Shown: piece by piece, positions 3,444 to 30,989 of the stretch | How the letters are laid out: every line of letters starts with the position of its first letter | How positions within the stretch are numbered: the first letter of the stretch is position 1 | From: Rhodococcus sp. OK302 | GTDB lineage: Bacteria; Actinomycetota; Actinomycetes; Mycobacteriales; Mycobacteriaceae | Length of the DNA: 64,000 nt | Direction of reading: 5' to 3' | Assembly (NCBI RefSeq): GCF_002245895.1 | Contig: NZ_NPJZ01000001.1 | Span: 4,829,501 to 4,893,500, forward strand | Notes under the pieces: generated by a model | Told to the model about the DNA's origin: nothing | Database searches by the model: none | Seen by the model: only the letters and a program-made list of their open reading frames with translations | Made by a program: the position numbers and the translations under genes

Positions 3444-4457
3444 TCAGCGGCGGCCAGGCGAAACAGGGCCTGAAACTGCAGATCGTGCCAACGTCGCAGC
3501 CCCCACCATGCCCGCTGCTTCGCCCAACTGGGCGCTCCGAATGCGTGCGAGCGGTCGATGTTTGGCACCGGTCAGCAAATTTGCATACTGCTCACGGGCT
3601 TCGTCGAGAAACAGCGGCGCAGAACTCGCAACGCCGCCGGCAATCACGACAAGATCCGGATCGTAGACATCCCCGACCATGGCCAGACCCACCGCCAGCC
3701 ACCTCGTGAACTCTGCCATCGTCGCTAACGCAATCGGATCTCCGTCGTACGCGGCGTTGGCGATTCGGCGTCCGGTCAACCCGCCCGCATCGATGCCGAC
3801 TTCCCGGGCAAGAACCGTCGACGCGGAGGGATCCGCGGCAAGTAGTTCAATTGCTGTGTCCACCAACGCCGTACCGCTGCAGTACCGCTCCCAACAACCA
3901 CGTTTCCCACAGGCACACGGGCGCCCGTCCGGCACCACCTGTATGTGACCGAGTTCGGGAGCTACGCCATGACTCCCCCGGTACAGCTCACCGTTGACGA
4001 GCAACGCGGCGCCGATACCCGTACCGATTGCCACCATCACGACGTTGCGGTGGCCGGAAGCCGCACCGAACCGATGTTCCGCGTACGCCGCGGCATTGGC
4101 GTCGTGCTCGAGGACCACGGGAAGACCCAGTCGTGCACTCAGGTCACTACCTACCGGCGCATCGACCCACGGCAGGTGCGGAGCAAAACGCACAGCAGTG
4201 CGATCCAAAGTAATGAACCCGGCAACAGCCAAACCGACCGCGGCAACGTCATGCCTGCCGACCAATTCGCGAACCACCCGGTCCAAGGCATTCTCGAGTG
4301 ACCTGGCCGACTGCGGCGTCGGAGCTTGCGCTGTATCGAGCACTTGGCCGTCCACATCCACCACCGAGGCACGGATGCTGGTGCCGCCCACATCGATTCC
4401 GATGGTCAAGAAATCGGTAGTCGAGAAATCCGCAGTCGAGCCATGACGCCCGTTCAT
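3444..4457 (-). CDS. ROK-family sugar kinase (glucokinase-like)
   Basis: A 337-aa ROK protein. It has the N-terminal phosphate-binding IGIDVGGTSIRA motif, a substrate-site ELGH, and the zinc motif CACGKRGCWERYCSG that defines the ROK signature. Family members phosphorylate glucose or other hexoses in the cytoplasm; there is no N-terminal HTH, so this is a kinase rather than a ROK repressor. The ATG at 4457 has GGAGAG 8 nt upstream and is preferred over a GTG 17 codons earlier. Substrate specificity cannot be read from the sequence. It follows the ArsA-like operon on the same strand but is separated from it by 93 bases. Confidence 0.85.
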   Translation of the reverse strand: MNGRHGSTADFSTTDFLTIGIDVGGTSIRASVVDVDGQVLDTAQAPTPQSARSLENALDRVVRELVGRHDVAAVGLAVAGFITLDRTAVRFAPHLPWVDAPVGSDLSARLGLPVVLEHDANAAAYAEHRFGAASGHRNVVMVAIGTGIGAALLVNGELYRGSHGVAPELGHIQVVPDGRPCACGKRGCWERYCSGTALVDTAIELLAADPSASTVLAREVGIDAGGLTGRRIANAAYDGDPIALATMAEFTRWLAVGLAMVGDVYDPDLVVIAGGVASSAPLFLDEAREQYANLLTGAKHRPLARIRSAQLGEAAGMVGAATLARSAVSGPVSPGRR

Positions 4458-4550
4458 CGCAGCCACTCTCCGCACTCCATCATCACGCATTCTGACGATT
4501 GTGCCCACAGAAAGCCGTCAGTACCAGCGGTCCGACGAAACAGCACCCAC

Positions 4551-4955
4551 TCAGGGTTTGACGGTCACCGTAATCGGCACGAAGGCAGACGCGCGAGGTT
4601 CGGCCTTGGCAGAATCATCGGCCGCCGAGGCTCCACCGCCCGGACCACTGTCGGGCCCGTTGTGTCCGCCCAGGAACTCGTCGAGAAGCTCGCGGAGTAG
4701 CGCCAAGAGGACTGCCGCCTGCCCAGCGAGAAAGGCCAGAAGTTCATGGTGCTCACCCCGTACCAGCGCCGCGATCGCGCAGACCGGGCACCAACTGCAC
4801 CCACCGAACGCGGGCAACTCCGCCGGGTTCTGTCCGTCTTCGGGCCCGGACGCACGGCCTTCGGCCAGTTGCGCCAGCATCGGTTCCACGCGCGCCAAGA
4901 CGGAATCGGCCAACACACGAAATTCTGCGAGGAGCCGAGTGTGGTCTTCGTTCAT
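4551..4955 (-). CDS. Small CxxCxxC protein coupled to an ArsA-like ATPase
   Basis: I do not recognise a named function. The 134-aa product begins with a helical segment, then has Cys53, Cys56 and Cys59 in a CSWCPVC cluster, a hydrophobic helix (about 62-95) and a disordered Gly/Ala-rich acidic tail. The cysteine triplet suggests metal or Fe-S binding. Its ATG overlaps the stop of the upstream ATPase gene as ATGA, so it is probably translated by re-initiation and made in step with the ATPase. It occupies the Rv2183c position of the conserved block. The real start is the ATG at 4955 rather than an in-frame GTG three codons earlier. Confidence 0.75.
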   Translation of the reverse strand: MNEDHTRLLAEFRVLADSVLARVEPMLAQLAEGRASGPEDGQNPAELPAFGGCSWCPVCAIAALVRGEHHELLAFLAGQAAVLLALLRELLDEFLGGHNGPDSGPGGGASAADDSAKAEPRASAFVPITVTVKP

Positions 4956-6202
4956 ACGGGCCACACCGCGGGATCCGGTACAAATCGAATAATCAGGTCG
5001 GTTCCGTCCAGCTCAGCCCCACTGACGACGCAACGACGCAATACCGACGCCAATCTCACTCTCCGCCGCACCCCGTCCGCTCCCACCAGCACATCGTCCT
5101 CCACCCGGCCCAACGACAACGACGACGGATCGACAAGCGGAAGGTGCATCCGCATCGCGTAGACCGAATCCACTCCCGTACCCGACTCCAGCGTCACCGT
5201 CACGAGCTCGGTAAGGCTTTGCGGTTCCGGAACGGACCCCTCGTCGATTGCCGGCGCCGCACCCTCGAGTGCGGCCGCAATGTCGCCCAGAGCCGCCAAC
5301 CCTACCGGTTCGGTATCGGTCTGTTCGACAACCTCGACTGGGACGGCCCCCGCGGCCAGGCGCAGCGAGTCGACACACGAGCGTTGCGCATCACGGCGGT
5401 TGGCCAGCCACCGAGTTGCTCCATCGGACGTCGAACTGCGGTCCGACACCGAATCGAATTGCGGCACAATTCCATTGACGACAATTCGCTGAACCTGCAC
5501 ACCCGAGAGCGCCAAACCCGACAGCGTGCGACGCGTCGAAAGGACAGCACTCGACTCGGCTGACGTCACCAGGTGAACGGTGGTGTTGGAGCGATCCGCG
5601 AGAAATCCCGAAATCTGGTCGACCGTCGATACGACGCGCTCGATCACCGACACCAGCAGGATCAAACGCACGTCGTTCGCCGCGACGGCAGACAAGCGTC
5701 GATGGCGCGGCCACACCCGCTCGAGGTACTCGGACACCATCGCCGGAGCCCCGAAGACACGCAAAGCTTCAGTCGCCGCGGGACAATCCACGATCACGAC
5801 GTCGTACTCACCACTCGATGCCATCCGAACGACTTCGGCGATCGCCAAGATGTCTGCAATGCCGAGCGAACCCGTCAGCTCCTCGGGTTCCAGAGTGTCG
5901 AACGTCGACCCATGTTCGTGGGCGCCCGCGGCGTCCAGCAACACCGACAGGCCACGAAATTTGTCCTCGACAAGAGTCAACATGTCGAGTTGCCAGACAT
6001 CCAGCCCGCCGAGGAGTGGAGTCACCTCGCGTGGAACCGGGATCGCCAGCACATCCGCCAGGGAATGTGCCCGATCGATCGACATCAGCAGAACCTTCGA
6101 TCCCGCAGACGCAGCCGCAAGCGCGGCCGCAGATGCGAGTGTCGTGGCCCCGCTACCTCCCTTACCGGTGAACAGCTGGATACGGGTTCGCGCGCCGTTC
6201 AG
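4952..6202 (-). CDS. ArsA/MinD-like P-loop ATPase (Rv2184c-like), probable CTG start
   Basis: A cytoplasmic deviant-Walker-A ATPase of the ArsA/Get3/MinD superfamily. The P-loop TGKGGSGATT keeps the signature Lys of the KGG element but has Ala where the second Lys (GK[ST]) is usual. A switch/Walker-B strand, VVIVDCPAATEAL, follows in the middle of the protein. The first ATG in frame (6085) lies after the P-loop and would delete it. Between the last upstream in-frame stop and that ATG there is no ATG, GTG or TTG; the best candidate is a CTG at 6202 that overlaps the TGA of the preceding SRPBCC gene. The product is then about 416 aa. Its stop overlaps the next gene (ATGA). Alternatives are another rare start codon or a sequencing error in this stretch. 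Confidence 0.75.
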   Translation of the reverse strand: MNGARTRIQLFTGKGGSGATTLASAAALAAASAGSKVLLMSIDRAHSLADVLAIPVPREVTPLLGGLDVWQLDMLTLVEDKFRGLSVLLDAAGAHEHGSTFDTLEPEELTGSLGIADILAIAEVVRMASSGEYDVVIVDCPAATEALRVFGAPAMVSEYLERVWPRHRRLSAVAANDVRLILLVSVIERVVSTVDQISGFLADRSNTTVHLVTSAESSAVLSTRRTLSGLALSGVQVQRIVVNGIVPQFDSVSDRSSTSDGATRWLANRRDAQRSCVDSLRLAAGAVPVEVVEQTDTEPVGLAALGDIAAALEGAAPAIDEGSVPEPQSLTELVTVTLESGTGVDSVYAMRMHLPLVDPSSLSLGRVEDDVLVGADGVRRRVRLASVLRRCVVSGAELDGTDLIIRFVPDPAVWPV

Positions 6203-6636
6203 CCCTCGACTCGCTTCTTCAGTTCCTTCAACGCGGTATCGGTGATGATCTTCTCGGCCTTACGTTTGAACAGCCCGATCATAGGAATGGTCAAGTCGAC
6301 GGTCAGCTCATACGTCACGGACGTCGTACCGTCGGCTTCGGAAAACAGAGTGTACGAGCCGAACTGAGATTTCTGAATCTCGCCGGACAGTAACTCCCAG
6401 CTCACCGACATTCCGTCGGGTGCCCAGTTGTACTGCAATTCGTACGTGTCCTTGACCATGCCCGCATCCAGAACGAAGCGCACCCGATCTGCGCGCCCAC
6501 TGGCACCGACGGCCGTAACCTCGACGGACTTGGCCGCCGCGACCCACGCGGGATACGCCTCGAAATCGGCGATCACACCCATCACGGCGTCGGCCGGAGC
6601 GTCGATGCTGATCAACCCCTTGGTTTTCTCGGCCAT
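6199..6636 (-). CDS. SRPBCC (START-like) family protein, Rv2185c type
   Basis: A 145-aa polyketide-cyclase/START-like fold protein. The N-terminal pattern (IDAPADAVMGVIADFEAYPAW) and the alternating strands after it are characteristic of SRPBCC proteins, which enclose a hydrophobic ligand cavity. Ligand and reaction are unknown. It matches the mycobacterial protein called TB16.3. The ATG at 6636 has GGAAGAG about 7 nt upstream. It is the first gene of a tightly packed set with the ATPase and the cysteine protein, suggesting a shared process. Confidence 0.85.
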   Translation of the reverse strand: MAEKTKGLISIDAPADAVMGVIADFEAYPAWVAAAKSVEVTAVGASGRADRVRFVLDAGMVKDTYELQYNWAPDGMSVSWELLSGEIQKSQFGSYTLFSEADGTTSVTYELTVDLTIPMIGLFKRKAEKIITDTALKELKKRVEG

Positions 6637-6681: not shown

Positions 6682-7068
6682 TCAGGCCGGCGACACGCCT
6701 GCCGGACGTCCGGCTTCCAATTCACGCTTGATAGCAAAGGCCATCACCTTGCCGTCGACACGACGTTTGCGGTTCATCCCGGCCAGATCGAGTCCGGCCA
6801 GACCGGATGGCGACACACCGACCGGTTCGGCATGAAGGAAGTAATGGACGATCGCTCCGTCCATCACCGGTTCGAGCCACACCTCCATTGTGCCCACGAG
6901 CTGGCCCGACACACCCCAACGGAAGCCTGCGGGTCCGCGATCCTCACGGACCTCGAGCTCGAGATCTCGCCACCAACGACGCCATTGCGCGCGCGAAGAC
7001 AACAGTTCGGCGACGCGCTCGGGCGGTGCCGCGATAAATGTCTGGTCTGCGACCTGAATGCTGCTCAC
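6682..7068 (-). CDS. SRPBCC-like conserved protein, Rv2186c position
   Basis: A 128-aa protein with an SRPBCC-like opening (ADQTFIAAPPERVAELLSSRAQWRRWW) followed by alternating beta strands (FRWGVSGQLVGTMEVWLEP, AIVHYFLHAEP). It ends in a basic helix. No catalytic residues are evident. The start is uncertain: the GTG at 7068 gives a product close in length to the mycobacterial homologue, while in-frame GTGs at 7083-7113 would add up to 15 residues. It lies 45 bp upstream of the other SRPBCC gene and is probably the first gene of the same operon, divergent from fadD15. Confidence 0.75.
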   Translation of the reverse strand: MSSIQVADQTFIAAPPERVAELLSSRAQWRRWWRDLELEVREDRGPAGFRWGVSGQLVGTMEVWLEPVMDGAIVHYFLHAEPVGVSPSGLAGLDLAGMNRKRRVDGKVMAFAIKRELEAGRPAGVSPA

Positions 7069-7229
7069 GGGAGTTAGCTTCACATATTGCACCGACGCGT
7101 TGACCACGGGCACCAGACCGTTACCAACCGGTCATGATGTTAACCCGGCCACAACCAGGCCGGACGTGCGACTACAGTAATGAGCGTCAGACCCTACTCG
7201 TCAGTATTTCGCAGTGTCGGAGGTATTTC

Positions 7230-30332: not shown

Positions 30333-30989
30333 GTGAAATTGCTACGCCGCGGTGACTCAGACAACTCCGACAAACATGACGTCGAGGTCACTGGGGCATC
30401 CTCCGCCTCCGAAGAGACACCCATCGAGCAGGTGGGCAAGGGTCGCCCCACACCCAAGCGTCGCGACGCCGAAGCCAAGAAGCGTGGACCTGTCGCGCCC
30501 GCACCTCTGACGGCCAAGGAAGCCCGCGCACGCCGAAAAGCGACGCGCGGATCCAAGGCAGATCGCAAAATCGAAGCTGCCGAGCGTCGTGCGTCCTCAG
30601 CGGACCGCCGCGCCCGCATGCTCGCCGGCGAGGACAAGTACCTTCTCCCCCGCGACAAGGGACCCGTTCGCGCCTACGTCCGCGATTTCATCGATGCCCG
30701 CCGTAACCTGCTCGGCCTCTTCATGCCGATGGCGTTGATACTGATCATGGTCACATTCGCCCTCCCCGGGCTCAGTGCCGTCGTCACACTCGCGATGTTC
30801 GTCATGATGCTGTTCATGGTCGGTGAAGGTGTCTGGCTCGGACGCATGATCAACAATCGCGTCGCAGAGCGCTTCCCCGACAGCACCGACGGCGGATTCA
30901 AGCTCGGTTGGTACGCGTTTGTCCGCGCAACTCAGATTCGTAAGCTTCGCGCCCCGAAGCCCCGTGTGGGACCCGGCGACGCAATCTGA
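30333..30989 (+). CDS. DUF3043 membrane protein (Rv2206 type)
   Basis: A 218-aa protein of unknown function. The N-terminal half is highly charged (KGRPTPKRRDAEAKKRGP, then an Ala/Arg/Lys-rich helix to about residue 105). Two membrane helices follow at about 125-143 and 147-165, with a conserved C-terminal tail including GRMINNRVAERFPD. This layout is characteristic of DUF3043, found across Mycobacteriales beside cobU or glycerate kinase. It is followed within 2 bases by cobU. The start is a GTG. Confidence 0.88.
   Translation: MKLLRRGDSDNSDKHDVEVTGASSASEETPIEQVGKGRPTPKRRDAEAKKRGPVAPAPLTAKEARARRKATRGSKADRKIEAAERRASSADRRARMLAGEDKYLLPRDKGPVRAYVRDFIDARRNLLGLFMPMALILIMVTFALPGLSAVVTLAMFVMMLFMVGEGVWLGRMINNRVAERFPDSTDGGFKLGWYAFVRATQIRKLRAPKPRVGPGDAI

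Follow-up and report, generated by a model that had tools for sequence, protein, structure and literature searches.

A conserved CTG overlapping an SRPBCC stop codon as the probable coupled start of a Get3/ArsA-type ATPase gene in Rhodococcus and its relatives

The gene for a Get3/ArsA-type ATPase in Rhodococcus sp. OK302 appears to begin at a conserved CUG that shares bases with the stop codon ending the preceding SRPBCC gene and that would act as a coupling start; comparison of orthologous sequences leads us to give this reading a probability of roughly four in five. The window, the whole stretch of DNA that was analyzed, comprises 64,000 nucleotides, at 4829501–4893500 of its contig, and the features that bear on the argument are these:

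6682–7113, minus strand: second, divergent SRPBCC-like gene, farther upstream (PF10604, 20.4 bits, below the cut-off of 27.4)
6199–6636, minus strand: upstream partner, an SRPBCC/polyketide-cyclase-like protein of 145 amino acids, last codon GGC and then TGA (PF10604, 50.3 bits against a cut-off of 27.4)
6199–6202, minus strand: CTGA overlap, in which the CTG at 6202–6200 (proposed ATPase start) and the SRPBCC stop TGA at 6201–6199 have two bases in common (from the sequence)
4952–6202, minus strand: Get3/ArsA-type ATPase gene, encoding 416 residues when read from the CTG, its C-terminus an HSP20-like (alpha-crystallin-type) domain; stop TGA at 4954–4952
6140–6166, minus strand: altered deviant Walker A loop GKGGSGATT, residues 13–21, with Lys14 retained and the P-loop Lys19 replaced by Ala (from the translation)
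6083–6085, minus strand: first ATG, and first standard start, in the ATPase frame, Met40 (from the open reading frame list)
4982–5167, minus strand: HSP20-like domain of the ATPase, residues 346–407 (PF17886)
4952–4955, minus strand: ATGA in which the ATPase stop overlaps the start of the next gene, a coupling junction of the usual kind and an internal contrast to the CTGA
4551–4955, minus strand: gene for a small downstream protein with a CSWCPVC motif, ATGA-coupled to the ATPase (from the open reading frame list)

The CTG is built from the last C of the final SRPBCC codon and the TG of the stop TGA, and upstream of it the ATPase frame continues for 19 codons without a stop. ATG, GTG and TTG are all absent between the upstream stop and the P-loop of this frame in the window, as the original prediction had said; it was also right in its coordinates for the CTG at 6202 overlapping the preceding TGA, in placing the first ATG at 6085, after the loop (residue 40), and in reading the second lysine of the loop as replaced by alanine (Ala19 of GKGGSGATT). 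Downstream, the longest open reading frame of the CSWCPVC gene (from a GTG at 4964) probably begins three codons too early, and a Pfam scan of this small protein returned no match at E 0.1. A ROK-family glucokinase-like gene lies beyond the ATPase run, at 3444–4508 on the minus strand.

Orthologues were drawn from a genus search, with a match in 28 of 28 genomes (in one genome the match covered just the final part of the gene), and from a family search, with a match at E 1e-25 or better in 155 of the 201 genomes drawn. The loci compared came from 100 of the 140 family genomes that gave a match and belong to other genera, together with 80 named loci, and removal of 29 duplicates reduced 207 loci to 178 distinct SRPBCC–ATPase loci. 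Left out before counting were a locus with only the last part of the gene (L028), a second gene piece from the genome of L027 (L029) and a paralogue (L030). Changes were counted on a tree of 192 rows, 10 of them outgroup, built with IQ-TREE in quick mode under LG+G4 with the nine loop residues omitted, a tree that carries long-branch warnings.

An in-frame CTGA is present at 160 of the 178 loci, and in 23 of the 25 genera represented by loci from the genome search; the other junctions comprise 2 with GTGA, 9 in which the ATPase lies in the SRPBCC frame and 7 in which it lies in the third frame. CTGA is already found in two of the three rows of the deepest family branch on the tree. The complete lack of ATG, GTG and TTG between the upstream stop and the loop recurs in 67 of the 160 CTGA loci, as in the window. 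Alignment of orthologues had been set beforehand as the check on the original prediction, and in it the loop region is retained along with the CTG; orthologues that begin after the loop and lack it were not seen. A separate SRPBCC search contributed nine further loci that are kept outside the 178 (four CTGA, five GTGA): CTGA stands at the junction in genus g19 (2 genomes) and in genus g9 (2 genomes), and GTGA at the SRPBCC–ATPase junction in all five g4 genomes. In the five ATPase relatives from g4 (L139, L141–L144) the P-loop motif was not found, a glycine-rich remnant standing in its place; the ATPase gene nonetheless persists there, with GTGA replacing CTGA.

The spacing between the CTG and the loop is far more labile than the frame that joins them. 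The distance takes 20 values in the 160 CTGA loci, from 8 to 51 codons, and changed no fewer than 44 times along the tree, and its restriction to whole codons is conditional, these rows having been picked for CTGA; the unconditional figure is 9 changes in the frame of the ATPase relative to the SRPBCC stop over 177 rows. Roughly two in three unconstrained indels would shift the frame, and a start below the linker would place no constraint on them; a frame that is mostly kept favors initiation at the CTG. Differences within the linker itself, counted over 32 disjoint pairs, fall 30, 28 and 47 at codon positions 1, 2 and 3, which is a mild coding signature.

The base that completes the CTG is also held. 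Immediately before the SRPBCC stop, 169 of the 178 loci have C and the remaining 9 have G, and the tree requires 4 changes at this position; in the same rows the position preceding the ATPase stop changed 30 times. Among the 160 CTGA rows the last SRPBCC codon is GGC in 138, GAC, CGC and TCC in 5 each, GCC in 4 and AGC in 3, so that its amino acid has changed 12 times and its third base not once, a zero that is conditional on the choice of these rows for CTGA; the 32 other fourfold columns scored show between 10 and 48 changes each. In 152 of the 160 (last codon GGC, CGC, GCC or TCC), A, G or T in place of the C would be synonymous and would create a standard start. At the following junction 123 of 133 loci have ATGA or GTGA and 8 have CTGA (the 133 being those of the 178 whose ATPase TGA precedes an open −1 frame of at least 60 codons), and the preference for C is therefore specific to the ATPase gene. 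Part of the bias is nonetheless compositional, because C is the commonest base before TGA in the window genome (91 of 153 gene-like open reading frames ending in TGA). SRPBCC genes for which an adjoining ATPase was not found (L132, L135, L137 and L140) end in C, C, C and G, and these four genomes are too few to serve as a control.

As a rough guide to background, the window and 20 stretches of 20 kb from the same genome hold 17 in-frame NTGA junctions (8 GTGA, 6 ATGA and 3 CTGA), by a crude gene filter that missed the SRPBCC–ATPase pair itself; at each of these three CTGA junctions a standard start follows after 1, 2 or 8 codons. Apart from the SRPBCC–ATPase junction, the window itself contains two in-frame CTGA junctions, at 1986–1989 and at 30986; standard starts follow them after 8 and 2 codons, and both look accidental. 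For the CTG of the ATPase gene, chance was rejected on its recurrence in frame at orthologous loci. Sequencing error, a concern raised at the outset, was set aside as well, for independent assemblies carry the identical CTG, and a restored ATG or GTG start was not seen. An RNA element at the junction was likewise rejected: in 40 of the 160 CTGA rows RNAalifold gave no stable consensus fold there, with energies of −0.52, −0.23 and −0.23 in junction windows and 0.00, 0.00 and −0.09 in gene-body windows.

The 18 loci without the in-frame CTGA are of several kinds. GTG directly follows an in-frame TGA in six of them (L006–L010, of which L008 is a Rhodococcus erythropolis contig, and L084) and an in-frame TAG in L114, while L091 and L129 have a GTGA overlap; L093 and L099 have other starts, and L107 has a CTG that does not overlap. 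In L085–L089 the CTG is kept in the ATPase frame and the SRPBCC stop lies farther on; a shifted SRPBCC end (GGCTGAGTGA) displaces the stop and lengthens the overlap, and in L086 the in-frame CTG is the sole NTG codon before the loop. For L169 the stop finder went wrong and assigned a TAA that lies past the loop; an in-frame CTG stands 16 codons before the loop there. Setting aside L085–L089, L107 and L169 leaves 11 loci without CTG, and 9 of these have a GTG that overlaps or directly follows the stop. L084–L089, L091 and L129 all belong to genus g29, probably Mycobacterium, because the closest named proteins to L085 come from Mycolicibacterium. Taken together, the kept frame, the frozen base and the replacement GTG favor the initiation at an overlapping CTG that had been predicted for the window.

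Outside the family a class-level search of 118 genomes gave a match in 63, from which 30 loci were taken, 7 of them family members. In 21 of the 23 outside the family the seventh codon ahead of the loop is GTG or ATG, and in one of these, L256, it shares one base with the SRPBCC stop. At that codon L250 and L265 (family f9) have a CTG and no ATG, GTG or TTG; it precedes an intact P-loop and lies two bases after the TAG that ends the SRPBCC gene, and it may be a separate, independent instance of a CTG start for this gene.

It might be supposed that translation begins farther down, either at ATG 6085 or from some non-standard codon near the loop such as the ATC at codon −5, and that the CTG is a by-product of GGC followed by TGA. 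ATG 6085 is indeed the first standard start, some database records are correspondingly short (P0018 and P0035), and GGC is the commonest glycine codon in the gene set (973 of 1665). This alternative is nevertheless improbable. Initiation at 6085 would cost the modeled protein its strand 1, P-loop and helix 1 along with part of strand 2, in a region that is aligned in all 30 sequences of alignment A1, which on the model makes the short form implausible; codon −5 varies by species (ATC, GTC, GTG, CTG, TTG and ATT); and indels between the TGA and a lower start need not keep the frame, yet mostly do, with 44 length changes against 9 frame changes.

A programmed −1 shift of frame where the SRPBCC gene ends, yielding an SRPBCC–ATPase fusion in which the CTG is only read through, would equally explain the frame kept between junction and loop, and the ATPase frame is open for more than 50 codons upstream of the CTG in 118 of the 160 loci. 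Against such a fusion, the ATPase frame is closed near the CTG in three loci, by a stop one codon upstream in L080 and L083 and seven codons upstream in L092, and no repeated slippery motif is seen, the last codon being any of six (GGC, AGC, GAC, CGC, GCC or TCC) and the preceding codons varying. The GTG at or directly after the stop in nine of the 11 loci that lack CTG also speaks against a fusion, and in the six where it follows an in-frame TGA it is inexplicable by a −1 shift; we consider the fusion quite improbable. That the ATPase gene is untranslated or decaying in the window clade, as the coincidence of an odd start and a missing P-loop lysine in the window strain might suggest, is very improbable indeed, given an open frame of 416 codons, 95–96% protein identity to two related species, 1498, 555 and 4741 differences at codon positions 1, 2 and 3 over the first 200 codons from the loop (119 related CTGA pairs), and Asp43, Asp139 and Asn243 kept in all three Ala19 rows.

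A counterpoint to the CTG start comes from within the CTGA loci: in 48 of the 160, an ATG, GTG or TTG follows the CTG and lies over three codons ahead of the loop; that lower codon could be the actual start there. In genus g30 an ATG directly follows the CTG in 5 loci. In Mycobacterium smegmatis reporters, moreover, CTG was a very poor leadered start, making up 0.03% of the selected pool and not enriched even with a Shine-Dalgarno sequence, and it was ineffective as a leaderless start (PMC4633059). These reporters may be taken as evidence against easy use of CUG, or as a hint that this CUG is used only when coupled.

The junction probably works by coupling. A ribosome ending at the SRPBCC TGA would slip back by one base and restart on the CUG, a weak start codon that initiator tRNA would read, and initiation of the ATPase would then depend on termination just upstream. 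Selection would hold the CUG since a low dose of ATPase, strictly coupled to that of its SRPBCC partner, is wanted. Shine-Dalgarno sequence upstream of the CTG is sparse, the best exact match being 3 bases in 129 of the 160 loci and 4 in 28, with none in 3, and a junction with so little of it suits reinitiation better than fresh initiation; the persistence of the C, in turn, suggests selection for low, coupled output. A bolder version, which we offer tentatively and regard as somewhat doubtful, is that the CUG is a coupling-only start, ignored in fresh initiation and used by ribosomes that have just terminated one base away; the C would be kept because the other bases give stronger, standard starts, fixing a low ratio of ATPase to SRPBCC and barring independent synthesis of the ATPase. 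CTG is poor in mycobacterial reporters yet is the apparent start of a conserved gene across most of the same family, and this makes it testable whether start-codon rules are looser for ribosomes that have just terminated than for fresh initiation. It also raises the question of whether start strength is under selection to set subunit ratios.

The protein read from the CTG is predicted to have a Get3/ArsA fold with an HSP20-like domain. In a Pfam scan residues 7–312 match ArsA_ATPase (PF02374, 126.1 bits against a curated cut-off of 24.3) and the C-terminus, residues 346–407, matches PF17886 (44.5 bits against 22.5); the TIGR00345 score, 115.7 bits, is under its cut-off of 135. By sequence, the relatives with solved structures are ArsA and Get3. 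An AlphaFold model based on a 30-row alignment (pLDDT 82.2, pTM 0.82) places secondary elements at E7–13, H19–32 and E37–41, and its best Foldseek match is TRC40 3zq6, at a probability of 1.00 and a TM-score of 0.80 by target length or 0.60 by query length. A genome scan gave the nearest named relatives as Rhodococcus sp. IEGM 1379 (96% identity in this protein) and ARC_M6 (95%). Rv2184c is presumed to be the M. tuberculosis orthologue, in a presumably syntenic region.

Both lysines of GKGGxGK[ST] are found in 136 of the 178 rows; the GKGGSGATT of the window departs from this pattern. Position 19 has switched between Lys and another residue at least 5 times on the tree and position 14 at least 4 times, and because all 10 outgroup rows carry both lysines these changes are read mostly as losses. 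In the window clade Lys was replaced by Thr in the common ancestor of 10 Rhodococcus rows and then by Ala in 3, and the lysine was lost separately in other lineages; position 19 is also Thr, Ala or Val among orthologues. The original prediction had linked the start problem to the altered P-loop, and this link was rejected: 124 of the 160 CTGA rows have both lysines, and CTGA already occurs on the deepest family branch, whereas the lysine went missing in the Rhodococcus ancestor, apparently as a later event, and separately elsewhere. The CTG start and the P-loop change look independent. Judged from its residues, the window ATPase probably has weak or modified nucleotide binding, and the site is likely changed rather than absent, because the three Ala19 rows keep Lys14 in addition to Asp43, Asp139 and Asn243. 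Repeated replacement of this lysine marks out a family of Get3 type that may, more than once, have come to do without ATP turnover.

The start also matters for annotation, since the ATP-binding loop drops out of records that overlook the CTG. It had been anticipated that automatic calling would truncate the ATPase, and this is borne out in part: the NCBI records P0018 (379 amino acids) and P0035 (349 amino acids), whose sequences were read, are short and lack the P-loop, as does the JGI record P0006 (373 amino acids), judged by its length only. On the other side, P0002 (NCBI and others, 95% identical) starts exactly at the CTG, with 416 amino acids beginning MNGARTRIQLF. P0002 and P0020 have Met where the DNA of the same contigs (L003 and L023) has CTG, and P0003 and P0025 start at the CTG by comparison with near relatives (L005 and L031). 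The CTG gene start is thus already known to an annotation pipeline; in the open-licence PMC literature on CTG/CUG starts and actinobacteria, no description of it was found.

Several known systems resemble parts of this locus. BagA and BagB (PDB 6bs3, ‘bacterial Get3-like A and B’) are Get3-like ATPases of the same bacterial family, and their profiles match the window ATPase weakly (NCBIfam NF053621, 47 bits; NF053622, 45 bits), although it falls far under their cut-offs of 521 and 400 bits; two further ATPase matches elsewhere in the window genome, at 28–29% identity, may be the BagA/BagB pair. Closer in architecture is Get3d, described from Arabidopsis and Nostoc as a Get3 with a C-terminal alpha-crystallin domain (PMC10248533; PDB 8elf, 8egk), which shares with the window ATPase a Get3/ArsA core followed by an HSP20-like C-terminal domain. 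The Nostoc protein, NosGet3d, is reported there to have the P-loop Lys replaced by Arg and a degenerate active site (PMC10248533). The window ATPase differs in being actinobacterial, in adjoining an SRPBCC gene and in the Thr, Ala or Val also seen at position 19 in its orthologues. Get3d proteins also match its model, but NosGet3d ranks fourth in Foldseek, behind TRC40 in first place, and the window ATPase is not filed here as a Get3d member.

For the junction itself the nearest comparison is with the RTGA (ATGA or GTGA) coupling overlaps described in mycobacteria (PMC4633059). These share with the CTGA a four-base overlap of stop and start in the −1 frame, from which coupled translation is expected, and the junction of the ATPase with the next gene in the window is itself such an ATGA. 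The difference lies in the first base of the start, which is C rather than A or G in the window and across most of the family, so that a standard start (ATG or GTG) is not found there; the same study reports a ‘paucity of CTG start codons’ in M. smegmatis (PMC4633059). The CTGA start is, then, a known type of arrangement in a new variant and not a new kind of system.
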